DNA of 64,000 nucleotides from Blastomonas fulva (GTDB lineage Bacteria > Pseudomonadota > Alphaproteobacteria > Sphingomonadales > Sphingomonadaceae): the NCBI RefSeq assembly GCF_003431825.1, contig NZ_CP020083.1, positions 1,464,501-1,528,500 of the forward strand. Reading direction: 5' to 3'. Position 1 is the stretch's first letter; each line of letters opens with the position of its first letter. The notes under the pieces are model-generated. The model searched no databases. It was given only the letters and a program-made list of their open reading frames with translations, and was not told the origin of the DNA. The position numbers were made by a program, and so were the translations under genes. Positions 4,373 through 64,000 of this stretch are shown piece after piece.

Positions 4373-5350
4373 ATGACCCTCGTAGCGCTCATTTCCAATC
4401 CACGCTCCACCGGCAACAAGGCGTTGCTGCCGGCGGTGCGTGATTATTGCGCGCACAATCCCGACATCTTCCATTACGAGGTGGAAGAGGTCCACCAGAT
4501 CGCCGACGCGCTGCGCGCGATCGCTCTGGTCAAGCCCAAGGTGCTGGTGATCAACGGCGGCGATGGCACGGTGCAGGCGACGCTGACCGAGCTCTATCAT
4601 GGCGGCCATTTCGGCAAGAACCCGCCCCCGGTGGCGGTGCTGCCCAACGGCAAGACCAACCTGATCGCGCTCGATCTGGGCGCCAGCGGCAAGCCGATCC
4701 CGACGCTCGACCGCATCGTCAACATCGCGCGCAACGACCTCGAAAGCCATATCGTGGTGCGCCAACTGATCGCGCTGACCGATGGCGAGGATGGCCGTCC
4801 GGTGCTGGGCATGTTCATGGGCGGCGCCGGCCTTGCCGAGATCATCCTGTACTGCCGCCAGAAAATCTATCCCTTGGGCCTGCCCAATTCGGTCAGCCAT
4901 TTCATCGCGGCCGTCGCCGGGCTGCTGACCATGCTGTTCGGCCTCACCGCCAAGTTCCTGCCGATCACCCGCTCGGCGCTGCGAATCTCGTACTTCCAGA
5001 AGGGCGAGCTCAACGGCAGCTTCATCGTGGTGATGGTGACGACGCTGGAGAAACTGCTGCTCGGCAGCCGCGCGGAGGCAGGCAGCTCGCCCACCGGGCA
5101 GCTGAAGTTCATCGCGGTGGAACACAACCGCGCGGGCCTGACGACGATGCTGATCGACACGCTGATGGGCCGCTTCGGCACCCGGCGCGGACGCGGCGTG
5201 CATCTGGCGCGCGAGGACATGATCCGCATCGACAGCGACCGCAGCCGCAGCCGCGTCGTGCTCGATGGCGAGATCTTCGAGGCCAGCGCGGGCAAGCCGA
5301 TCATCCTGCGCTCGACCGATCCGGTGCCGTTCCTGCGGCTGGCGGCTTGA
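4373..5350 (+). CDS. Diacylglycerol kinase-family lipid kinase
   Basis: This is a 325-residue soluble protein of the DAGK catalytic family (YegS/DgkB-like). The nucleotide-binding motif NGGDGT is at residues 61-66, followed by a PNGKTN segment that matches the usual GTxNDFA region in position. The C-terminal half has the beta-sandwich lipid-binding fold signals, ending with VVLDGEIFEASAGKPI. The family phosphorylates diacylglycerol or related lipids with ATP at the inner face of the membrane. It follows the DUF2141 gene by 6 bases. Downstream lies a Tam41-like nucleotidyltransferase that could use the phosphatidate it would make. The exact lipid substrate cannot be read from sequence. Confidence 0.85.
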   Translation: MTLVALISNPRSTGNKALLPAVRDYCAHNPDIFHYEVEEVHQIADALRAIALVKPKVLVINGGDGTVQATLTELYHGGHFGKNPPPVAVLPNGKTNLIALDLGASGKPIPTLDRIVNIARNDLESHIVVRQLIALTDGEDGRPVLGMFMGGAGLAEIILYCRQKIYPLGLPNSVSHFIAAVAGLLTMLFGLTAKFLPITRSALRISYFQKGELNGSFIVVMVTTLEKLLLGSRAEAGSSPTGQLKFIAVEHNRAGLTTMLIDTLMGRFGTRRGRGVHLAREDMIRIDSDRSRSRVVLDGEIFEASAGKPIILRSTDPVPFLRLAA

Positions 5351-6489: not shown

Positions 6490-6975
6490 ATGCGCATGTC
6501 CAGTCTTGCCGATTATGCCGTGGTGCTGATGAGCGCCGCCGCGCGCCATTGCGGCGGAATGCGCTGCAATGCGCGCGCGCTGGCGACCGAGACCGGGCTG
6601 CCTTTGCCCACCGCGCAGAAGCTGGTGAGCAAGCTGTCGGCGGCCGGGCTGATCGAATCGGTGCGTGGTGCAGGCGGCGGATTCCGGCTGTCGCGCCCGC
6701 CCGCCGCGATCACGCTCGCCGATATCGTCGAGGCGGTCGACGGCCCCATCGAGATCACCGTGTGCGCGGGCGACCACGCCAGCGATTGTGCGATGGAGGG
6801 CAGCTGCCATGTCCGTCCGCACTGGCAGATCGTCAACCGCACCATCCGCGCCGCGCTTTCAGGCGTGACCCTCGCCAGCCTCGGCCAACACGTTCCAACG
6901 TCTCTTGGCCTCGATCCCGAACGCCCCGAACATCCGCTCGACCTGAAGAAGGTCGGCGAAAGGACCTCAACGTGA
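6490..6975 (+). CDS. Rrf2-family Fe-S regulator of the suf operon
   Basis: This is a 161-residue winged-helix regulator of the IscR/SufR/NsrR class. The helix-turn-helix region lies at about residues 25-65 and contains [20 protein letters not shown] and the wing residues RGAGGGFRL. Three cysteines, C92, C100 and C106, sit in the loop that carries the cluster ligands in Rrf2 proteins, spaced C-x7-C-x5-C, so it probably senses Fe-S status. It is the first gene of the suf operon; its stop overlaps the sufB GTG by 4 bases, and the palindrome just upstream is the likely autoregulatory operator. Whether it corresponds to IscR or SufR nomenclature is not decided here. Confidence 0.85.
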
Positions 6976-8840: not shown

Positions 8841-9072
8841 GTGCGTGGCGTGAGCGGCGCGGTCGATCATGTCGAATACCATCGCCAAGGCACTGTCTGC
8901 GCGAAAGGCCAGATGCTGGATGGGAAATTTCACGGATACTGGGAATGGTATCGCAAGGACGGGTCGCTGAAGCGATCCGGTCATTTCAACCGAGGCGAGC
9001 AGGTCGACATATGGACGACCTATGATGCCGACGGTGCCCCCTACAAGACGACCAGGATGAAGATTGTATCCC

Positions 9073-52646: not shown

Positions 52647-53336
52647 ATGGCCGCACGCAAACGCGGGTTTCTGGCCCGGCTGATCGCACTGGTGTTCAAG
52701 CTGATCTTCGGCTTTGTCGCCTTATCGCTGCTGATGGTGGTGATCTACCGGTTCGTGCCGCCGCCGACCACGATCACCATGCTGACCGACAGCAATGGCG
52801 CGACCCGCGACTGGACTCCGATCGAGCGGATCGACCGCAACATGGTGGCAGCCGCGATCGCGGCGGAGGACGGCAAGTTCTGCACCCATAGCGGGTTCGA
52901 CCGCGAGGCGATCGAGGCCGCCGTGCGACGCAACGCGCAGGGCGGCCGCATCCGCGGCGGATCGACGATCAGCCAGCAGACCGCAAAGAACGTGTTCCTC
53001 TGGCAGAATGGCGGCTTCTTCCGCAAGGGGCTGGAAGCCTGGTTCACGGTGCTGATCGAGACGATCTGGGGCAAGCGCCGGATCATGGAGGTCTATCTTA
53101 ACGTCGCCGAGACAGGCATCGGCACCTATGGGGTCGAGGCGGGCGCGCAGCGCTATTTCGGCAAGGGCGCAGGCTCGCTCAGCCGCGACGAGGCCGCGCG
53201 CATGGCCGCAGCGCTGCCGCTCCCCAAGAAGCGGTCGGTCAAGAGCCCGAGCGGCTTTGTGCGGCGCTATGGCAACAACATCGCGCGGCGCATCCGGATC
53301 GTCCAGCGCGACGGGCTCGACGCCTGCACGCGGTGA
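52647..53336 (+). CDS. mtgA: Monofunctional peptidoglycan glycosyltransferase
   Basis: This 229-residue GT51 transglycosylase is anchored by an N-terminal helix (residues ~14-36). The catalytic motif AAIAAEDGKFCTHSGFD contains the essential Glu, followed by GGSTISQQTAKNVFLW, typical of MtgA, and RRIMEVYLNVAETG. It polymerises lipid II into glycan strands without transpeptidase activity. It begins 10 bases after the DUF192 gene. Confidence 0.93.
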   Translation: MAARKRGFLARLIALVFKLIFGFVALSLLMVVIYRFVPPPTTITMLTDSNGATRDWTPIERIDRNMVAAAIAAEDGKFCTHSGFDREAIEAAVRRNAQGGRIRGGSTISQQTAKNVFLWQNGGFFRKGLEAWFTVLIETIWGKRRIMEVYLNVAETGIGTYGVEAGAQRYFGKGAGSLSRDEAARMAAALPLPKKRSVKSPSGFVRRYGNNIARRIRIVQRDGLDACTR

Positions 53337-53340
53337 CTGA

Positions 53341-54147
53341 TCAGCCTTCGGAAGAGGCTGTGCTTTCCGGGCCGTCATAATCGATCGCTGCGGCCGCTGC
53401 GCCGGACATGATGAAGCCGATCGGCCGGTCGATTTCCTCGTGCAGATGCCCGATCAGGCTTGCGGTGCGCGCGAGCAGCGAGATGCCCTTCAAGGCTCCG
53501 ACCGGAAAGCCGACATCGAGCATCACCGCAGGGATCGCGCCGTTGACGTTGATCGGCAGCGGACGCCCCAGCGTCTCGGGAAGGCAATCGCGCAGCGCAT
53601 ACAACATGCCGATATGCTCGCCGACGATGCCGTGCTCCTCGGCCATCTTCAGCAGCAGCAGCGCACGCGGATCGCCCGCGGAGTGCTGCGGGTGGCCGAA
53701 GCCGGGGATCGCCTGTCTGGTCGCACGCAGCGTGCGGACGCCATCCGATGCGATCTCGGCCGGCGTTCCCTCGCCGCTGCGCACCTTGGCCACCAGATCG
53801 GCATAGAAGCGCCCGGCAACCTCCGCGCTGCCCAGCACCACCGATCCGCAGCCCAGCAGGCCTGAAGCGACCGCACCGTGAAACGCTTCGGGCGCGGCGG
53901 CGTAAGTCATCCGCGCAGCGACCACGCTGGGCACCAGCCCGTGTTCGGCGATCGCCGCCAGCACGGCGTTGGCGAACAGCTTCTGCACATCGGTCGGTTC
54001 GCCGCCCGTTACCAGCAGCCAGAAATAGCTGGTGAAGTCCATCTTGCCGATGATGTCGTCGCACAGATCGCGCCCACGCACGGTGATGCTGCTGGCATCC
54101 GATGTGCAGATGGCGGTGAAGGGAGCGTCCTGCTTGCCGATGCGCAT
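53341..54147 (-). CDS. Citryl-CoA lyase-like (citrate synthase-fold) protein
   Basis: This 268-residue protein matches the citrate-synthase-homology module of ATP-citrate lyase: SGLLGCGS, then IPGFGHPQHSAGDPRA with H152 in the catalytic His position, LPINVNGAIPAVMLDVGFP, and LARTASLIGHLHEE. Where ATP-citrate lyase has NVDG with the catalytic Asp, this protein has NVNG (N202). It lacks the large N-terminal part of citrate synthase. Likely chemistry is retro-Claisen/aldol cleavage of an acyl-CoA, probably supplied by the divergent CaiB-type transferase. The start codon lies 56 bases from a double operator. The substrate is not identifiable. Confidence 0.78.
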   Translation of the reverse strand: MRIGKQDAPFTAICTSDASSITVRGRDLCDDIIGKMDFTSYFWLLVTGGEPTDVQKLFANAVLAAIAEHGLVPSVVAARMTYAAAPEAFHGAVASGLLGCGSVVLGSAEVAGRFYADLVAKVRSGEGTPAEIASDGVRTLRATRQAIPGFGHPQHSAGDPRALLLLKMAEEHGIVGEHIGMLYALRDCLPETLGRPLPINVNGAIPAVMLDVGFPVGALKGISLLARTASLIGHLHEEIDRPIGFIMSGAAAAAIDYDGPESTASSEG

Positions 54148-54202
54148 GAAAAGAGTCCTTTGCGTTGCTCTGCTGCCGGGCCGGGGCCCCGGGTTAGATA
54201 AA

Positions 54203-54234
54203 TTCGATTTACGAAGTTGATTTCGTATATCGAA
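54203..54234. promoter_or_regulatory. Double-dyad operator A (candidate IclR site), divergent promoters
   Basis: Two dyads of the form TTCG-N5-CGAA lie side by side: TTCGATTTACGAA (54203-54215) and TTCGTATATCGAA (54222-54234), 6 bases apart; together they form an almost perfect larger palindrome. On the plus strand TTGATT (54217-54222) sits in the hinge and is followed after 17 bases by TATGGG (54240-54245), a plausible weak promoter. It lies between the citryl-CoA lyase-like and CaiB genes. A matching site is at 56379-56410. Confidence 0.78.
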
Positions 54235-54267
54235 TTTTCTATGGGTGGGTGTCAGGGAGAAGTCAAT

Positions 54268-55416
54268 ATGGCCAAGCCGCTTGCCAATGTCACCGTGCTC
54301 GAAATGGGCACGTTCATCACCGGGCCCGCCGCTGGCATGATGCTCGCCGACATGGGTGCGGATGTCATCAAGGTCGAGCGGCCCGATGGCGGCGATCCGT
54401 TCCGCGCGTTTCGCGGCGGGCTCTACAGCCCCCATTTTCAGACCTACAACCGCAACAAGCGCTCGATCACGCTCGATACCCGCGGCGGTGCCGATCTCGA
54501 GGCGTTCGACCGGCTGATCGCTAGCGCCGATGTCTTCATCCAGAATTTCCGACCCGGCGTCGCCGACAAGCTCAATGTCGACCCCGAACGGCTGCGCGGC
54601 ATCAATCCCCGGCTGATCTATCTGTCGATCTCGGGCTTCGGCGCGACCGGTCCCGATCGCGACCGCCCCGCCTTCGACACCGTCGCGCAAGCAGCCAGCG
54701 GCTTTCTGCGCCTGCTGGTCAACCCCGAGAATCCCCGCGTCGTCGGCCCGGCGCTCGCCGATGCGATCACCGGCTTCTACGGCGCTTATGGCGTGCTCGC
54801 GGCGCTGCACGAGCGGGAAAGCACGGGCAAGGGGCGCCTGGTCGAGGTCTCGATGTTCGAGGCGATGGCGCATTTCAACCTCGACGATTTCACGCACTAT
54901 TTCTCGGAAGGCGAGGTCATGGGCCCGTACAGCCGGCCCAATGTATCGCAATCCTATGTCTTCCAGTGCGCCGGCGGCGACTGGCTGGCTCTGCACATGT
55001 CGTCACCGCCCAAGTTCTGGGAGAATCTGGCAACCGCTGTCGGCCAGCCCGACATGCTGCAGCGGCCCGAATTCGCCAGCCGCGATGCGCGGATTGCCAA
55101 TTACGGAAAGGTCGCAGCCTTTCTCGCCCCGCTGTTCGCCGCGCGCAGCCGCGCCGAATGGTGCGCGACGCTCGAGCAGCTCGAAGTGCCGCATTCGCCG
55201 GTCTATTCCGCGCCCGAAGTTGTCGAGACCCCTCAGGCGCAGCATCTGGGCCTGACGGTCGAGGATCCCGATGGCCCGCATGGCCGCTTCCGCACCATCC
55301 GCTCGCCGGTGAGCTTCGATGGCGAGCGCGCGACTTCGGTTACCGCGCCGCCGGTGCTGGGTCAGCACAATGAAGAGGTGCTGGGGCTGGCCGATACGTC
55401 CGCTGCGGCCGAGTGA
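54268..55416 (+). CDS. CaiB/BaiF-family (class III) CoA-transferase
   Basis: This 382-residue protein has the class III CoA-transferase pattern: VTVLEMGTFITGPAAGMMLADMGADVIKVE at the start, NRNKRSITLDTR, IQNFRPGVADKL, YLSISGFGATGPD, and the catalytic aspartate D165 in VGPALADAITGFYGAYGVL. It moves CoA between carboxylic acids (often from succinyl-CoA or acetyl-CoA) without a covalent PLP-type mechanism. GGGAGAAG precedes the ATG. It is divergent from the lyase-like gene and overlaps the IclR gene by GTGA, so all are under operator A. Confidence 0.9.
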   Translation: MAKPLANVTVLEMGTFITGPAAGMMLADMGADVIKVERPDGGDPFRAFRGGLYSPHFQTYNRNKRSITLDTRGGADLEAFDRLIASADVFIQNFRPGVADKLNVDPERLRGINPRLIYLSISGFGATGPDRDRPAFDTVAQAASGFLRLLVNPENPRVVGPALADAITGFYGAYGVLAALHERESTGKGRLVEVSMFEAMAHFNLDDFTHYFSEGEVMGPYSRPNVSQSYVFQCAGGDWLALHMSSPPKFWENLATAVGQPDMLQRPEFASRDARIANYGKVAAFLAPLFAARSRAEWCATLEQLEVPHSPVYSAPEVVETPQAQHLGLTVEDPDGPHGRFRTIRSPVSFDGERATSVTAPPVLGQHNEEVLGLADTSAAAE

Positions 55417-56294
55417 GCCTGCTGACCCCCATCGACAGCACCGCCTTGCCTGTACCCCTGGCACAGGCTAGCGGTGGAGCGATGGAAGACGCGGCAAAGC
55501 CCGGCAAAGACAGCGAGTATCTCTCGACCCTCGAACGCGGGCTCAAGGTGCTGCGCGCGTTCGATGCGACGCATCCCGAAATGCAGCTGAGCGAAGTCGC
55601 GCAGGTCACCGGCTTGAGCCCGGCAGTGGCGCGGCGCTGCCTCAACACCTTGGTGCAACTGGGCTATGTCGCACAATTCGGGCGCAAGTTCCTGCTGCGG
55701 CCCGAGGTGCTGTCGTTCGGTACCGCGTATCTCTCCTCGATGAATGTCGAGCAGGTGATCCTGCCGCCGCTGCAGAAATTGCGCGACGATACCGGCGACA
55801 GCGCGTCGATGGCGGTGCTGTCGGGCACTGATATCCTCTATGTCGCGCACGTCTCGACCAACCGCCGGATCCGGCTGGGCGCGAATGTCGGCACGCGCTT
55901 TCCCGTGCATGCGACGTCGCTGGGCAAGGTGCTGCTGGCGTTCCAGTCCGAAGCGGTGATCGCGCAATACATGGCCGCGGTCGATCTCCAGCGGTTCACC
56001 GAGCGGACCGTGACCAGCCACGCGGCGTTGGAGCAGCGGCTGCAGGGCGCGCGCGAGACCGGCTATGATTCGGCGCTCGACGAGCTCGATTATGGCATCG
56101 TCTCGGTCGCGGTGCCGGTGTTCGATGCCAATCGCAAGGCGATCGCCTCGATCAACTGCTCGACCTCGACCACGCGCATCTCGCAGGACGAACTGGTCCG
56201 CACCCGGCTGCCGATGCTGCGCGAGGCCTCGGCCGAAATCGGCAACGCGCTGCAGCGCTGGCCGACCCTGATGCACTCGCTGCAGCACAACTGA
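55413..56294 (+). CDS. IclR-family transcriptional regulator
   Basis: This 293-residue protein has an N-terminal winged helix-turn-helix (about residues 38-95: LERGLKVLRAFDATHPEMQLSEVAQVTGLSPAVARRCLNTLVQLGYV) and the C-terminal effector domain (SLGKVLLAFQSEAV and SVAVPVFDANRKAIASINCS). It resembles the PcaR/PcaU subgroup, which control catabolism of small carboxylates. It overlaps caiB by 4 bases. The two double-dyad sites at 54203 and 56379 flank its gene and are its likely targets. About 30 extra residues precede the DNA-binding domain; a later Met could be the true start. Confidence 0.92.
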   Translation: MSLLTPIDSTALPVPLAQASGGAMEDAAKPGKDSEYLSTLERGLKVLRAFDATHPEMQLSEVAQVTGLSPAVARRCLNTLVQLGYVAQFGRKFLLRPEVLSFGTAYLSSMNVEQVILPPLQKLRDDTGDSASMAVLSGTDILYVAHVSTNRRIRLGANVGTRFPVHATSLGKVLLAFQSEAVIAQYMAAVDLQRFTERTVTSHAALEQRLQGARETGYDSALDELDYGIVSVAVPVFDANRKAIASINCSTSTTRISQDELVRTRLPMLREASAEIGNALQRWPTLMHSLQHN

Positions 56295-56378
56295 TCTTCT
56301 GAAAATCGATGGACGCAAGAGGCTGCCCCGGCGGGGCGGGCGGCCTGGTGTTGCCTGCTTCGCACAGTGGCAGGAAAC

Positions 56379-56410
56379 TTCGCATATCGAACTTGACTTC
56401 GTAATACGAA
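56379..56410 (+). promoter_or_regulatory. Double-dyad operator B upstream of TonB receptor operon
   Basis: TTCGCATATCGAA (56379-56391) and TTCGTAATACGAA (56398-56410) are separated by 6 bases, exactly the layout of operator A. The hinge again contains a -35-like element, TTGACT (56393-56398), followed after 17 bases by TACCTC. It is 88 bases before the receptor's start. The shared architecture makes it a likely second binding site of the IclR protein. Confidence 0.78.
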
Positions 56411-56498
56411 CAATTTACCTCAAATCGTAACCCGCGCGCAGAGCCCTCAAGGGCCGCGGCAGCGACCGTGGCGGGACATCACAGGATGAGGGGTACTG

Positions 56499-58688
56499 GT
56501 GGATATGTCCGGATTGTGGAACAGGCTGCTTCTGGCAGGATCGACGTCGGCGCTGGCGCTGGCATGTGCAACGCCTGCCCTGGCGCAAGGCCAGGCTGCC
56601 CCGGCTGACGATGAAGGCGAGATCGTCGTCACCGCGCTGCGCCGCGACACCAATCTTCAGGACACCCCCGCCGCGATCACCGCGTTCAACGCCGAGACGA
56701 TCGAGAATGCCGGGATCGACAAGGCCGCGGACTTCATCGGGCTGACCTCGAACGTCCAGCTGATCGAGACGCAGAACGCGGGCAACGCGTTCGTCATCAT
56801 CCGCGGGATCACCCAGAACCGCAATTCCGAGCCCTCGGTCGCCGTGGTGGTTGACGGAGTGCAGCAGGTCAATGCTGCCCAGTTCAGTCAGGAATTGTTC
56901 GATATCGAGCAGATCGAAATCCTCAAAGGTCCGCAGGGCGGCCTGTACGGACGCAACGCGATCGGCGGCGCGATCATCATCAACACCAAGCAGCCCAGCG
57001 ACCAGTTCGAGGGCCGGGTGTTCGCTGGGATCGACAACGGCTTCGGCTACACGCTGCGCGCAGGCGTTTCAGGCCCGATCAGCGACACGCTCAAGTTCCG
57101 GCTTTCGGGATCGTACCGCGACACCAACGGCTATATCCCCAACACCTTCCTGGGCGAGGATGCCGATCCGCTCGAGGACATCTCGCTGCGCGGCAAGTTG
57201 CTGTGGACCCCGACCGATCAGCTGACCGTCGATCTGCGCGCCTCGATGTCGCTGCTGCGCACCCAGGCGCTGTACTACAACATCGTTGCCGATGTGAACG
57301 ACACCAGCCTGCCGGTGCGGGTCAACAATGCCGGGCAGAACGACCGCGACATCTACAACGTGTCTGCCAAGATCGACTACAAGGCCGACTGGGGATCGAT
57401 CACCTCGGTCACTTCGTACGACACGCTGTCCGAAATCCTGACCGGCGACGCGTTCAACTTCCTTCCGATCCAGGAATCGCTTTTCTTCGCGATCTTCGGC
57501 TTCGATCTCAACCAGAGCCAGTTCCTCGATGTCGAGGCGATCAGCCAGGATCTGCGCATCCAGTCGGCGGACGGGCAGAAGTTCAATTGGTCGGTGGGCG
57601 GCTATTTCATCGACACCAACCGCTATATCTCGACCGGCAACATGGTCGATACCGGCGCGGGCGTGTTCCCGGTGTTCCGCACCCCCAGCACCAATCCGCT
57701 CAATCCGCAGGCGACCTTCCTGGCGGATTCGCAGAGCAATTTCGCCTGGGCGCTCTACGCCAATGTCGGCTATGAATTCTCCGAAGCCTTCCGCGTCGAT
57801 GCCTCGCTGCGTTATGACCGCGACAAGCGTCGCAACCGGACTTTGACCCCGACCGCGTTCATCCCGGTGGTCCCGGGCTTCCCCACCGGTCGCACCGGCG
57901 AAGTGCGCCGCGAGACCTTTGACGAATGGCAGCCCAAGATCACGCTGACCTACAAGCCGGTCGACAACGTGACGATCTATGGCGGCTACAGCCGAGGCTT
58001 CCGCTCGGGCGGGTTCAACCAGACCGGCGTCGGTGCAGTGGCGGCGGGCACCGGCGTGGTGGGTGTCGCGGACATCTATGAGGCCGAGGTCGCCGACACC
58101 TTCGAGATCGGCGTCAAGACCACTTTGTTCGACCGGATGCTGACGCTCAACGCCAGCGCCTACACCACCAAGTCCGAAAACGGCTATTTCTTCGTCTTCC
58201 TCGCCGCCAACTCGACGCAGAACCTGGGCAATGTTCCCGAGGTGCAGCTGCAGGGCTTCGAGATCGATGGCACGCTGCGTCCCGCGCGCGGGCTGGACAT
58301 CAACTTCGGCCTCGGCGTCACCTACAGCGAGATCAAGGAATTCCCCGACCCCACCGTGATCGGCAACGAAGCCCCGTTCATCTCGCGCTACACGATCAAC
58401 CTGGGCACCCAGTACGAGAGCAACCTGGGCGACAGCGATCTCAAGGGCCGTATCCGGGTGGATTACAACCGCACCGGCAAGACCTGGTTCGATGTGCCCA
58501 ACTCGACCGTGCGGCGGCCGGTGGACCTCGTCAACGCGCGGCTGACATTGGATGGCGGCGCCTGGTCGCTGACAGGCTTTGCCGACAACCTGTTCAACAA
58601 GCGCTACAATGCCGAGTTCTCGCCCGGCGGCTTCGTGTTCAAGGGCCGCCCGCGCGTCTTCGGACTCGAGGCGCTCTACAAGTTCTGA
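56499..58688 (+). CDS. TonB-dependent outer-membrane receptor
   Basis: This 729-residue receptor has a signal peptide ending ALAQ, then a short TonB-box-like stretch ([11 protein letters not shown]), the plug domain ([15 protein letters not shown] ... [24 protein letters not shown]) and a 22-strand barrel ending in FGLEALYKF, with a terminal Phe. It belongs to the large sphingomonad group used for uptake of aromatic and other bulky substrates rather than only iron-siderophores. It starts at GTG 56499 (ATG 56505 possible). Operator B precedes it, and four enzymes follow, so it is the likely uptake route for the locus substrate. Confidence 0.93.
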
Positions 58689-58713
58689 TCCTCACGATAA
58701 CGGGAAACCACCA

Positions 58714-59316
58714 GTGGCACGCATCCTCATCCTCTATTATTCGGGCTATGGTCACACCGAGGTGATGGCGGGTGCCGTCGCTGATGGCGTCAATGCGGTT
58801 GCGGGCTGCGAGGCAGTGGTCAAGCGCGTGCCCGAACTGGTGTCGGACGAGGTTGCTGCGGCCGCGCACATGAAGATCGATCAGGCAGCTGCGTTCGCCA
58901 GCCCGGATGAGCTTGCCGATTATGACGGCATCATCTTCGGCACGCCCACCCGTTTCGGCAACATGGCCGCGCAGATGCGCAACTTCCTCGACCAGACCGG
59001 CGGGCTGTGGGCCAAGGGCGCGCTGATCGGCAAGCCGGGCAGCGTCTTTGTCTCCACCGCCAGCCAGCATGGCGGGCAGGAGACCACGATCACCTCGTTC
59101 CACACCACGTTGCTCCACCATGGCATGATCGTCATCGGCCTGCCCTACAGCTTTGCCGGCAACACCATCATGACCGAGATCAGCGGCGGCACGCCTTATG
59201 GCGCGAGCACGATCGCAGGCGGCGACGGATCGCGCATGCCGTCCGAAAACGAGCTTGCAGGCGCGCGCTTCCAGGGCGAGCATGTCGCCCGCATCACGCT
59301 GAAGCTGGCGGCCTGA
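58714..59316 (+). CDS. wrbA: WrbA-like NAD(P)H:quinone oxidoreductase
   Basis: This 200-residue flavodoxin-fold protein has the FMN phosphate loop near the start ([14 protein letters not shown]), the WrbA-type [28 protein letters not shown], and [16 protein letters not shown] and the C-terminal [17 protein letters not shown], all characteristic of WrbA. It reduces quinones by two electrons, limiting redox cycling. The start is GTG at 58714, 25 bases after the receptor stop. In this locus it suggests that a quinone or hydroquinone intermediate is formed. Confidence 0.9.
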
Positions 59317-59358
59317 CCACGGCCTGCCGGCGGCGTGAGAGATATTGAGGAGGATGCG

Positions 59359-59901
59359 ATGAGCGTATTGGTCAACCGTTTGCACCACACTGCCTATACC
59401 ACCCGCGATCTCGAGGCGACACGCGCGTTCTACGAGGACGTGCTGGGATTTCCTCTGGTCGCGACCTATTGCGAGATGGACGAGCTGTTCGGCAAGGAGC
59501 GGACCTATTGCCATTGCTTTTTCGCGATGAAGGATGGCAGCGCGCTCGCCTTCTTCCAGTTCGCCAACGAGGACGACCAGGCCGAATTCAGCCCGCCGAT
59601 CCCCGAATCGCCGTTCCATCACATCGCGCTGCATGTCGATCAGGATGCGCAGATCGAGCTCGAGCGGCGCATTGCTGCTGCCGGCATCGTCGAGCCGCAG
59701 ACCTACATCCTTGAGCACGGCTATTGCCGCTCGGTCTATGTCAAGGACCCCAACGGCATGATCATCGAGTTCACCTGCGATGCGCCCGAGGCGCTGGCGA
59801 TCGAGGCCGATGTGCGCGCCAAGGCGCGGACCGAGCTCGCACGCTGGCTGGCGGGCGACCACAGCAACAACAATACCTTCCGCAGCGTCGAAGCGGCCTG
59901 A
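59359..59901 (+). CDS. VOC/glyoxalase-dioxygenase superfamily protein
   Basis: This 180-residue protein has two beta-alpha-beta-beta-beta modules. The first begins NRLHHTAYTTRDLEATRAFYEDVLGF and the second FHHIALHVDQDAQIELERRI, ending with VYVKDPNGMIIEFTCD. The His in HHTAY, the His in HHIALHV and the Glu in IIEFT are placed as the His-His-Glu metal triad of metal-dependent VOC enzymes such as extradiol dioxygenases and glyoxalases. A GAGGAG site precedes the ATG. A ring-cleaving or isomerase role in the locus is plausible but not proven. Confidence 0.87.
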   Translation: MSVLVNRLHHTAYTTRDLEATRAFYEDVLGFPLVATYCEMDELFGKERTYCHCFFAMKDGSALAFFQFANEDDQAEFSPPIPESPFHHIALHVDQDAQIELERRIAAAGIVEPQTYILEHGYCRSVYVKDPNGMIIEFTCDAPEALAIEADVRAKARTELARWLAGDHSNNNTFRSVEAA

Positions 59902-59904
59902 TTG

Positions 59905-60783
59905 ATGGCTGGCCCGGTTGGCAGGCTGGGCGACGCATTTGCGATGATCCCGCCTGCCGCCGTGCTGGGCGGAGAGACGTTCTGGCTCGATGTCGGTGAC
60001 GGCCGGCTGGCGGTCGAGACGATCGGGCGCGGGCCTGCGGTCGTTCTGCTGCACGGCTGGACGCTCGACCGGCGGATGTGGACGCTGCAGGCGCGCGCGC
60101 TGGCCGACCGGTTCACGCTGATCGCGATCGACCGGCGGGGGTTCGGCCAGTCGGCCCTGCCGCCCTGCCGCGCGCGCGAAGTCGAGGATCTGGCCCGGCT
60201 GGCCGACCGTCTGCAGCTGGCAAGCTTCCATCTGGTGGGCATGTCTCAGGCGGGCGCGACCGCGATCGCGTATGCGATCGCGCACCGCGACCGCATCGCC
60301 ACCCTGGTGCTGCAGGGCATCTCGCTGGCCGGAATCCCCGATCATTCGAACGCATCGGACACCATACCGCTCGCCGATTATGCCGACATGGTGCGGGCCG
60401 GGCGGCTCGCCGAGATGAAGCGGCACTGGGCCGATCATCCGCTGATGGCGGGCCTGACGGGCGAGGCGGCGGACATCGGCGCCGCCATGCTCGCCGATTA
60501 TGACGGCAGCGACCTGCTCGCAGGTCCCGCAGGACCTTCGGCGCGGCTGGATAGCATGGCCGCGCTCTCCGTGCCGGTGCTGGCGATCACCGGTGATGCC
60601 GACACCCCCTGGCGGCGCACCGTGACCCAGGCGCTGGCGCGCAGTGCGCCGCTGGGCCAGGCGCGCTTCGTGCGCGGCGCAGGCCATCTGTGCAACCTCT
60701 CGCACGGGCTGGAATACAACGCCGCGCTGTGCGCCTTTCTTGCCCGGCCGCTGATGCCGGTGCCCGATGCCGTGAACGACTGA
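59905..60783 (+). CDS. Alpha/beta hydrolase
   Basis: This 292-residue hydrolase has the oxyanion HGW (residues 50-52), nucleophile S114 in HLVGMSQAGATA, the acid in ITGDADTPW and the His in VRGAGHLCNL. Its lid region is short and the sequence fits carbon-carbon or ester hydrolases of the epoxide-hydrolase/meta-cleavage type. It starts 3 bases after the VOC stop (a TTG three bases earlier is possible), so the two are coupled; a ring-cleavage product hydrolase would fit that order. The specific substrate is unknown. Confidence 0.88.
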   Translation: MAGPVGRLGDAFAMIPPAAVLGGETFWLDVGDGRLAVETIGRGPAVVLLHGWTLDRRMWTLQARALADRFTLIAIDRRGFGQSALPPCRAREVEDLARLADRLQLASFHLVGMSQAGATAIAYAIAHRDRIATLVLQGISLAGIPDHSNASDTIPLADYADMVRAGRLAEMKRHWADHPLMAGLTGEAADIGAAMLADYDGSDLLAGPAGPSARLDSMAALSVPVLAITGDADTPWRRTVTQALARSAPLGQARFVRGAGHLCNLSHGLEYNAALCAFLARPLMPVPDAVND

Positions 60784-60806
60784 CCTTGCAATGGAGTATC
60801 CCACCG

Positions 60807-61937
60807 ATGGCCGCGCCTGAAAGTTTTCTCACCACCCATGTCGGCAGCCTGCCGCGGCCCGAGGCCCTGCTCGATATGGTCTTCGCGCGCGAGGGCGGGG
60901 AGCAGGTGTCCGAGGCGGACTTCGATGCCGCGGTCGAGCATGCGACCGCCTATGTCATCAAGCGCCAGATCGAGGCGGGGGTGAGCATCGTCAACGATGG
61001 CGAGCAGTCCAAGCCCAGCTATGCGACCTATATCAAGCACCGGCTCTCGGGCTTCGGCGGCGAGGCGGGGCAGTATGAATTCGCCGATCTCGAAGCCTTC
61101 CCCGGCGCAAAGGCGCAGGTTTTCGGCAACACGGGCCGCGCCAAAAGGTCGGCCCCGGCGTGCACCGCGCCGATCACCGTGATCGACATGGAAGCCCCGC
61201 GGATCGATGCCGAGCGGCTGAAGCGGCTCGCAAACGGCCACGCCACCTTCATGTCGGCGGCCTCGCCAGGGGTGACCGCCCTGTTCTTCCCCAACCAATA
61301 CTATGCCAGCGACGAGGAGTATGTCTTCGCGCTCGCCGAGGGACTGCGGCACGAATACGAGACGATTGCCGCTGCCGGGATCACTTTGCAGGTCGATTGT
61401 CCGGACCTCGCGATGGGCCGCCACGTGCAGTTCACGCACCTGAGCCTCGAGGACTTCCGCAAGCGGATCGGCATGAACATCGCGGCGCTCAACCACGCGG
61501 TGCAGAACATCCCGGCGGAGCAATTGCGGATGCACCTGTGCTGGGGCAACTATCCGGGTCCACACCATTGCGACGTAGCGCTGGACGAGATTGCCGATAT
61601 CGTCTGGACCGCCAAGCCGCAGACCGTGCTGATCGAGGGCGCGAACCCGCGCCACGCGCATGAGTTCGCCTTTTTCGAGCAGCATCCTCTCCCCGAAGGC
61701 AAGATCCTGTGCCCCGGAATGGTCGAACCGCAGAGCCCCTATATTGAGCACCCCGAGCTCATCGCGCAGCGCATCGGCCGCTATGCCGATCTGCTTGGGC
61801 GCGAGCGGGTGATGGCGGGCGTGGACTGCGGCTTTTCGGTCCATGCCGGCAGCAACAGCCTCGATCCCGAGATCGTCTGGGCCAAGCTCGCGGCGCTGGC
61901 GCAGGGCGCAGCCATCGCCAGCGCGCGCTACTGGTAA
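60807..61937 (+). CDS. MetE C-terminal-domain-like methyltransferase or epoxide:thiol transferase homologue
   Basis: This 376-residue protein corresponds to only the catalytic C-terminal half of cobalamin-independent methionine synthase. The zinc set is visible: H243 and C245 in LRMHLCWGNYPG, E277 in LIEGANPRH and C341 in GVDCGF. N-terminally it has THVGSLPRPEALL. Free-standing proteins of this type include archaeal-type methionine synthases and the epoxyalkane:CoM transferase. It closes the TonB-receptor operon, 24 bases after the hydrolase, so a demethylation or thiol-transfer step on the locus substrate is more likely than methionine synthesis. That is inference. Confidence 0.75.
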   Translation: MAAPESFLTTHVGSLPRPEALLDMVFAREGGEQVSEADFDAAVEHATAYVIKRQIEAGVSIVNDGEQSKPSYATYIKHRLSGFGGEAGQYEFADLEAFPGAKAQVFGNTGRAKRSAPACTAPITVIDMEAPRIDAERLKRLANGHATFMSAASPGVTALFFPNQYYASDEEYVFALAEGLRHEYETIAAAGITLQVDCPDLAMGRHVQFTHLSLEDFRKRIGMNIAALNHAVQNIPAEQLRMHLCWGNYPGPHHCDVALDEIADIVWTAKPQTVLIEGANPRHAHEFAFFEQHPLPEGKILCPGMVEPQSPYIEHPELIAQRIGRYADLLGRERVMAGVDCGFSVHAGSNSLDPEIVWAKLAALAQGAAIASARYW

Positions 61938-61940
61938 GGC

Positions 61941-64000
61941 TCAGGCCGTTGCGCGCGCGTCGAGCGCCTCGCGCACTTTGCGCGCCAGCATCTCGCGGGT
62001 GTAGGGCTTGCTCAGCAGCCTGACGCCTGCTTCCAAAGTGCCGCCATGGACGATGCCCTTTTCGGTATAGCCCGAGGTGAACAGCACCGCGAGTTGCGGG
62101 ATCAGCTGCACCGCACGCTTGGCAAGCTCGTGGCTCTGCACCGGTCCCGGCATCACGACATCGCTGAACAGCATGTCGAGCGCGGTGCCGCTCTCGACGA
62201 TGGCGAGGCCAGCGGCGGCATCGCGCGCGGTGAGGGTGGTATAGCCCAGCTCGCCCAGCAATGCGGTGACGGTGGTGCGGACATCGTCATCGTCCTCGAC
62301 CACCAGGATCGTCTCGCTGCCGCCCGATATGGTGTCGGAACGCCGCTCAAGCGCTGCGGTGTCGGGGGTGGTTGATCGCGGCAGATAGATGCGGAAGGTC
62401 GTGCCGATTCCCGGTTCGCTGTACACCGTGACATGCCCGCCCGATTGCTTGATCAGGCCATAGACCATGCTGAGGCCGAGCCCTGTGCCCTTGCCCACCT
62501 CCTTGGTGGTGAAGAACGGCTCGAAGATCCGGTCGCGCACATCGGGCGGCATTCCGCTGCCGGTGTCGGTTACCGAGACCATGACATAGTCGCCCGCCTG
62601 CATGTCCGGGTATTTGCAGGCGAACAGGTTGTCCACTGCGGCATTGGCCATCTCTATGGTGAACAGTCCGCCGCCGGGCATCGCATCGCGCGCGTTGATC
62701 GCCAGGTTCAGGATCGCGTTTTCCAGCTGGCCATCGTCGACGAAGCAATCCCACAATCCGGTCTCGGCGGTGGTCTTGAGGCCGATGTGTTCACCCAGTG
62801 CGCGGCGCAGCATGTCTTCCAGATTGCCGACCAGGCGCGGCAGGTTGACCGGCTTGGGCGCCAGCGGCTGCTTGCGGCTGAAGGCGAGCAACTGCTGCGC
62901 CAGCCTCGTGCCCCGCGCCACGCCCGACAGCGCCAGGTCAAGCCGCTGGCGCGCGCGCTCGTTGCCCGCGACATCGCGGCCGAGCAGCTCCAGGCTGCCG
63001 CCGATGATCTGTAGCAGATTGTTGAAGTCGTGCGCGACACCGCCGGTCAGCTTGCCCACCGCTTCCATCTTCTGGGCATGGCGCAGTTGCGCCTCGGCGG
63101 CATCGCGCTCGGCCAGCGCCTTTTCAACCTGTGCCTTGAGCTCGGCGTTGAAATTCTCGCGCGCCATCCGCGCCTCTAGCTCGGCGGTGATGTTCTTGAC
63201 CTCCAGAACGGTCCCGATGGCAATGCCCGAGCCGTCCTGGATGGGGCTGGCGGAATAGGAGACCGGGTAGAAGCTGCCATCCTTGTGGACGAACACTTCT
63301 TCGCCCTGCACCTGATTAACCTCGGGCAATGCCCGGTCGATCGCACATTCGGCCAACGGAAATGGCTGCCCGCTGGGCCGGGTGTGGTGGATGACATCGT
63401 GGAGAATGCGGCCTTCGATTTCGGCGAAGCGGTAGCCTGTCAGTCGCTCGGCCGCATCGTTGAGGTAAACGCACTGCTGCTGGTCATCCATTAGGAACAC
63501 CGCCATTGATGTGTTGCCCAGCACGGTGTTGAGGCGGTTGGTGACGCTTTGCAGCTCGCGCATCGTGCGGTCGCGTTCGGTGATGTCCTCGATCGCGGCG
63601 TAGAACAGCCGCTGCTGCTGATCGACCAGCAATTGCAGGCGGACCGCGACGTTGTAGTCGGTGCCATCCTTGCGGCGGTGCACCGTCTCGAAGGTCAGCA
63701 TCTGCTGTTCGCCCGCGAGCAGCGGTGCGATCAGCGCGCGGAAGGTGTCCGCATCGATCATCGGCTTGATGTCGATCGGGGTCAGCGACCGGAGCTCTTC
63801 CATCGAATAGCCCAGATTGTCCCGTGCGCCGCGGTTGACCAGGATGAAGTTGAGCGTGTCCGCATCGAACAGGAACGCCTCGCTGACCGCATCCTCGACA
63901 ATCCGCCCCAGCCGCTCGACGCTGGAGGAGGATTTGAGCCGTTCGAGTTCGGCGGCGGAGCGACCGGCGAACAGTTCGAGGATTAGTGCGGGCTGGATAT
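61941..64000 (-). CDS. PAS hybrid histidine kinase with C-terminal receiver, 5' end cut by window edge
   Basis: At least 686 residues are encoded without a stop up to the right edge. Visible in order: a PAS region from the edge ([24 protein letters not shown]), a second PAS, a coiled segment, HisKA with the phospho-acceptor His in [12 protein letters not shown], HATPase ([27 protein letters not shown]) and a receiver with the phospho-Asp in [10 protein letters not shown]. It is closely similar in its kinase-receiver half to the kinase at 46325-48508, so the two are probably paralogues. Its stop lies 4 bases from the convergent MetE-like gene stop. The sensed signal is unknown. Confidence 0.88.

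Follow-up and report, generated by a model that had tools for sequence, protein, structure and literature searches.

Two Paired Dyads Flank an iclR Gene

Two sites of identical layout, operators A and B, are very probably the switches by which one regulator controls eight neighbouring genes of B. fulva. Each site consists of two TTCG-N5-CGAA dyads separated by a hinge of 6 bases, exactly as the original prediction for the window (the whole stretch of 64,000 nucleotides that was analysed) had claimed. Operator A (positions 54203–54234, assigned to neither strand) reads TTCGATTTACGAA GTTGAT TTCGTATATCGAA and is located between a lyase-like gene and a divergent caiB gene. Operator B (positions 56379–56410, likewise without strand) reads TTCGCATATCGAA CTTGAC TTCGTAATACGAA and is found upstream of a TonB receptor operon. 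The hinges are thus GTTGAT and CTTGAC, respectively. The description of both operators as near-identical proved too strong because, despite the identical layout, their letters are equal at only 23 of the 32 positions.

Single dyads are barely more frequent in the 64 kb window than expected. Four copies of TTCG-N5-CGAA were detected, all within operators A and B, versus a mean of 1.30, and at least four copies occurred in 5 of 100 shuffles. Judged by this number, the double dyads could be chance or compositional repeats. However, chance falls far short of explaining the paired arrangement. A search of the whole genome (4,123,210 bases) for paired dyads 6 bases apart revealed two exact copies, both at the predicted positions. 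Double dyads with one or two mismatches were absent from the whole genome, and 9 further places appeared at three mismatches. The reversed pattern, which served as a control, matched 18 places of the genome at up to three mismatches. A chance origin of the dyads was ruled out by the uniqueness of the pair in the genome, its co-occurrence with IclR and the fixed spacing of 19 bp; the flanks with near-zero information also speak against it. This explanation is so improbable that it can be set aside.

The Eight Genes and Their Probable Regulator

The only gene of the set on the minus strand (53341–54147) encodes a citryl-CoA-lyase-like protein with the C-terminal fold of citrate synthase (PF00285; NF004868 with 301.2 bits at a cut-off of 193). 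Its best solved relative by sequence is the citryl-CoA lyase 6hxp. The other seven genes are encoded on the plus strand. The caiB-type gene (54268–55416; PF02515) codes for a family III CoA-transferase and is followed in the same orientation, after a gap of 65 bp, by iclR (55482–56294; ATG at 55482, frame open from a GTG at 55413). Consequently, operator A also precedes iclR. Downstream of operator B we found the genes for a TonB-dependent receptor (56499–58688; PF00593 and PF07715), a WrbA-type NAD(P)H:quinone oxidoreductase (58714–59316; NF002999 and TIGR01755 above cut-off), a VOC-family protein of the glyoxalase/extradiol dioxygenase superfamily (59359–59901; PF00903), an alpha/beta hydrolase (59902–60783; PF00561) and a MetE-like protein with the catalytic domain of cobalamin-independent methionine synthase (60807–61937; PF01717). 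The gap between the TonB gene and the WrbA-type gene is smaller than 30 bp and, with the start codons as chosen, no gap inside the TonB operon exceeds 42 bp. The top NCBIfam match of the alpha/beta hydrolase is 3-oxoadipate enol-lactonase (TIGR02427), although the score of 87.8 bits lies below the cut-off of 255.85.

The regulator is a member of the IclR family, with 57.3 bits for PF09339 and 148.8 bits for PF01614 at cut-offs of 22 and 24, respectively. Its best NCBIfam match is TIGR02431 (PcaR/PcaU/PobR) with 253.1 bits, which is below the cut-off of 284.75. Among 75 aligned IclR proteins, 69 have PAVARRCL as recognition helix, and the RR of this helix is found in all 75.

One locus, L106 from Erythrobacter cryptus, carries GTCG instead of TTCG in the second dyad of both operators (6771–6802 and 8949–8980). 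Its hinges, GTAAAT and GTTAAA, both lack TTG. With regard to a possible co-variation of operator and recognition helix, the second half-sites of this locus are altered in both operators, but its helix is still PAVARRCL.

Conservation of the Sites in Orthologous Loci

Related loci were collected by a scan with the IclR protein, and the best 80 of 106 (L042–L121), which are not independent of each other, were compared. They originate from Blastomonas, Erythrobacter/Porphyrobacter, Sandarakinorhabdus, other Alphaproteobacteria and eight more distant sources (L111–L118), of which seven are Gammaproteobacteria and the last is “Alpha proteobacterium Q-1.” An exact double dyad is present in 78 of these best 80 loci; L106 and L118 have one-mismatch sites. 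With up to one mismatch, 153 sites were found, comprising 66 of A-type, 68 of B-type, 8 in the distant loci L111–L118 and 11 others. The caiB gene lies to the right of operator A at all 66 A-type sites and the lyase gene to the left at 65 of them, and a TonB receptor gene lies to the right of operator B at 63 of the 68 B-type sites. Outside the sites and the promoter elements described below there is almost no conservation, with near-zero information.

The spacing of the dyads is invariant. In the 1,162,575 bases of the best 80 of 106 loci, which contain 322 exact single dyads, all 142 exact pairs within 100 bp are spaced by 19 bp. No pair within 100 bp was obtained with eight other half-sites, a weak control because these half-sites had far fewer single dyads (2–51 each). 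Three tandem dyads, each 19 bp apart and the first with one mismatch, were observed before the TonB gene in L059 (4411–4461) and L193 (1482–1532).

Several loci are rearranged, and there the sites mostly move with the genes. Extra exact double dyads precede the relocated VOC gene in L048, L051, L054 and L064, and in L070 another is located ahead of the TonB unit, which is likewise relocated. An exact site at 11957 of L091 is followed by lyase-VOC-MetE; a one-mismatch site at 4582 of this locus is followed by an unnamed gene and then by the genes for a P450, CaiB and IclR. In L084 and L107 one-mismatch sites were also detected, with a PQQ-dehydrogenase gene about 0.6 kb downstream. These extra sites point to the P450 unit as a putative variable entry enzyme and weakly indicate the same role for the PQQ dehydrogenase. 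In six of the eight loci L111–L118 the lyase gene and the TonB gene flank the site. Several loci, for example, L057 and L089, have a MetE-like gene whose orientation or position leaves it without a preceding site. A second MetE-like protein of about 345 amino acids, closer to core MetE (e.g., L064, 4433–5551; L111, 14852–15886), was found in 24 of the best 80 of 106 loci by ORF clustering and in 31 of them by tblastn.

Putative Promoter Elements in the Hinge

According to the original prediction, each hinge carries a −35-like sequence which runs into the second dyad. On the plus strand, the putative −35 hexamers are TTGATT (54217–54222) in the hinge of operator A for the caiB-iclR promoter and TTGACT (56393–56398) in the hinge of operator B for the promoter of the TonB operon. 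A conserved TA 17 bp past the first hexamer (54240–54241, plus strand) was taken as positions −12/−11 of the −10 box. For the promoter of the TonB operon, the corresponding TA (56416–56417, plus strand) of a putative −10 box was assigned from the conservation among B rows. A simple sigma70 consensus scan of positions 53300–62000 detected neither hinge promoter, and the −10 boxes of the window are weak. Consequently, the −35 assignment relies on conservation across species.

Among the best 80 of 106 loci, position 15 in the hinge of the distinct A rows is T in 64 of 64, and positions 16 and 17 are T and G, respectively, in 63 of 64 each. In the B rows position 15 is T in 63 of 66, positions 16-17 are nearly always TG, and the hinge reads CTTGAC or GTTGAC at 61 of 68 B-type sites. 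Of 65 A rows, 63 have the TA at position 38 of the operator. It is less sharply placed in the B rows, with 32 of 67 at position 38 and 25 of 67 at position 37 (57 of 67 together). The TA therefore sits 16–17 bp beyond the TTGAYT hexamer, which is the geometry of a sigma70 promoter. In the distant loci L111–L118 the hinge contains TTGA at 8 of 8 sites, with the TA at position 38 in six cases and at position 39 in two. Since the hinge TTG and a TA 16–17 bp further on are conserved into the gammaproteobacteria, we conclude from the alignments that the dyads have a predicted sigma70 −35 box between them. Thus, the comparison across species upheld the −35-like hinge, but the consensus scan of positions 53300–62000 did not. 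Nine of the 11 other sites with up to one mismatch kept the dyads and had no hinge TTG on either strand. This observation suggests that the TTG is a promoter element rather than part of the binding motif.

Co-Occurrence of the Double Dyad and IclR

The distribution of site and regulator was analyzed in a family set of 397 genomes, in which an orthologue was defined by an E value of at most 1e-60 (59–100% identity). The IclR orthologue was present in 35 of the 397 genomes and the exact double dyad in 37. All 35 IclR-positive genomes contained the exact double dyad versus 2 of the 362 IclR-negative genomes. The contrary case named in the original prediction, a double dyad that recurs at numerous unrelated genes with no IclR neighbour, was consequently not encountered. 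Both exceptions (G156 and G321) belong to one genus and carry one and the same site; cluster genes are absent within 4 kb, and lyase and MetE-like genes are absent from the whole genomes. In genome G002, which belongs to the genus of the window, the orthologue, the exact site, the lyase gene and the MetE-like gene are all absent, the best IclR match being distant (27% identity).

A class-wide draw comprised 385 genomes, five of them common to the family set. Here the exact site occurred in four genomes, three with the orthologue (68–100% identity) and one (G427) without it; the 2.7 kb stretch of the latter contained no cluster genes. The exact site was present in 3 of the 5 IclR-positive genomes of this draw. 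Two genomes with an IclR protein of 44% identity (G459 and G649) had no exact site; later inspection revealed a one-mismatch double dyad upstream of their lyase gene. When spacings from 14 to 59 were allowed in these two genomes, pairs with no more than one mismatch appeared at 19 bp only. Altogether, no IclR match at E 1e-60 was obtained in 739 distinct genomes, of which 3 (G156, G321 and G427) contained an exact double dyad, and these sites were treated as unrelated because cluster genes are absent nearby. The counts do not represent independent events because the genomes are related. With this reading of the numbers, the apparent link of the double dyads to IclR is very strong.

In principle, the double dyads could be the sites of a different regulator whose gene lies elsewhere and which controls the cluster by coincidence. 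Binding is not demonstrable from sequence alone, and the three sites in genomes without an IclR match would fit such a regulator. However, the site tracks IclR in genomes which were drawn regardless of IclR, and the half-site equals one listed for the related PcaU in the main text of PMC8222616. We regard control by another regulator as very improbable.

Proposed Mode of Regulation

The double dyads are likely to be the operators of the PcaR/PcaU/PobR-like IclR protein encoded between them, where paired dimers would repress transcription until an inducer is present. We infer direct repression by such paired dimers from the arrangement of sites and promoters. Each dyad would be bound by one IclR dimer. 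The centre-to-centre spacing of 19 bp corresponds to about two helical turns, so that both dimers should bind on the same face of the DNA, as a pair or a tetramer. At both promoters, caiB-iclR and TonB-wrbA-VOC-hydrolase-metE, a bound site would cover the −35 box in the hinge; on the opposite strand it would lie where the lyase gene starts. Binding without inducer would thereby silence the complete set of eight genes, among them iclR. The protein would be released by an inducer, perhaps an aromatic substrate or intermediate. The predicted IclR regulon of eight genes gains support from the co-occurrence of IclR and site (35 of 35 versus 2 of 362 genomes) and from the location of the sites before the caiB, lyase and TonB genes.

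Activators of the PcaR/PcaU/PobR subfamily can bind over the −35 region. The same IclR protein might bind the double dyads and activate the caiB and TonB promoters, with repression perhaps limited to its own unit. Its best NCBIfam match (TIGR02431) is in line with this idea. Furthermore, titles in reference lists describe PcaU and PobR as transcriptional activators, and the sphingomonad IclR protein PbaR is likewise called an activator. Three features argue against activation. The near-consensus −35 TTGAC is kept at the TonB promoter at 61 of 68 B-type sites, and caiB and iclR both lie behind one operator. A near-consensus −35 is unusual for an activator-dependent promoter. Finally, the start codon of the lyase gene, which was located in 64 of the 66 A loci, is only 10–20 bp away from operator A in 40 of these 64 (median 17; 55 bp in the window). 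A protein bound so close to the start codon should block the lyase gene, and blocking fits this distance better than activation. We consider the activator model unlikely and prefer repression by paired dimers.

Comparison with Known Systems

Tandem IclR palindromes with centres 18–22 nt apart were predicted in 94 orthologous groups and explained by tetramer binding, as stated in the main text of Suvorova and Gelfand 2021 (PMC8222616). The operators described here resemble them in that two palindromes are placed 19 nt apart and the sites precede the target transcription units. By our own alignment, the half-sites agree with the group 1 motifs of that text, of the WTT-11-AAW type. Thus, the architecture is known and not new. 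The main text of PMC8222616 contains no match for Novosphingobium, Erythrobacter, TonB or CaiB, while its supplementary tables may list the group; a −35 box within the hinge was not met in the text consulted.

The core of the PcaU motif is given there as TTCG-ATWAT-CGMA, and the core TTCG-N5-CGMA is common to PcaU of Acinetobacter and the operators of this study (PMC8222616, main text). The arrangement differs, since that text gives three boxes for PcaU and PobR, namely one dyad and an additional direct half-site, whereas four boxes in two dyads are found here. PcaU and PobR moreover serve genes for 4-hydroxybenzoate and protocatechuate, none of which is among the eight. Signs of beta-ketoadipate control were not found: no pca or pob model was above cut-off for any of the eight genes, and the genome has no other site at up to two mismatches.

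PheR of Sphingobium sp. SHPJ-2 is described in the accessible text of PMC13273656 as an IclR repressor with a 44-bp footprint from +23 to −21. It is alike in being a sphingomonad IclR protein linked with catabolism and TonB-dependent uptake. It differs in its motif (GCAACG) and its pathway, the TonB link comes from transcriptomics, and that text reports no operator shared with a TonB gene. TtgV of Pseudomonas putida, an IclR family protein with DNA structures (PDB 2xrn/2xro), is a possible model for IclR dimers on the operator. However, it is an efflux regulator and only a distant relative of the IclR protein studied here (E 2.4e-13). PobR of Agrobacterium was not used for comparison because the accessible text of PMC12285266 annotates it as AraC family.

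A literature search which covered few subscription papers yielded no paper on such a cluster. The regulon around the citrate-synthase-fold lyase appears to be uncharacterised. The type of switch is known and is here unusually well conserved.

A Possible Pathway behind the Proposed Regulon

The eight genes perhaps serve the uptake and breakdown of one compound, which may be aromatic. Within the cluster, the quinone reductase, the VOC protein and the hydrolase provide hints to the pathway. In seven of the eight distant loci, the gammaproteobacterial L111–L117, a gene for a PaaK-like CoA ligase is present and CaiB is not encoded nearby, which may mean that activation of the acid follows a chemistry different from that of the alphaproteobacterial clusters. 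L113 additionally contains a gene for a VanA-like Rieske oxygenase.

Genes for intradiol (catechol-type) dioxygenases were observed next to iclR in L198 (8205–9062) and L199 (6854–7750). The genes of the IclR homologues of these loci (44% identity) have lyase and CaiB genes as neighbours, together with a double dyad that contains one mismatch. Both loci perhaps represent a second, intradiol version of the cluster. L199 also encodes an iron-containing alcohol dehydrogenase, which we take to have the fold of maleylacetate reductases.

Taken together, the PaaK-like, VanA-like and intradiol dioxygenase genes and the quinone reductase, VOC protein and hydrolase suggest that the substrate is aromatic, that a ring-cleavage product is activated with CoA and that a lyase step is involved. 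Citramalate and methylcitrate routes were also considered and rejected, as no curated model for these routes reached its cut-off. Sequence matches to solved structures provided no substrate clue for the MetE-like, VOC and CaiB proteins. As a tentative proposal, which may well prove wrong, the cluster might encode an undescribed aerobic ring-cleavage pathway. Its ring-cleavage product would be converted to a CoA ester by CaiB in the alphaproteobacteria or by the PaaK-like ligase in the gammaproteobacteria and then split by a retro-Claisen enzyme with citrate synthase fold. The quinone reductase, the VOC dioxygenase, the hydrolase and the MetE-like proteins would serve earlier steps, under an IclR switch with the −35 box between two bound dimers.

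With this assignment, eight genes with family-level names only become one testable regulon, a gene set conserved in part of the sphingomonads and in some gammaproteobacteria. The operator is so regular in its spacing and co-occurrence that it may be used to find further pathway genes in other genomes. The locus would also be a natural system in which to study promoter control by a pair of IclR dimers placed around a −35 box.
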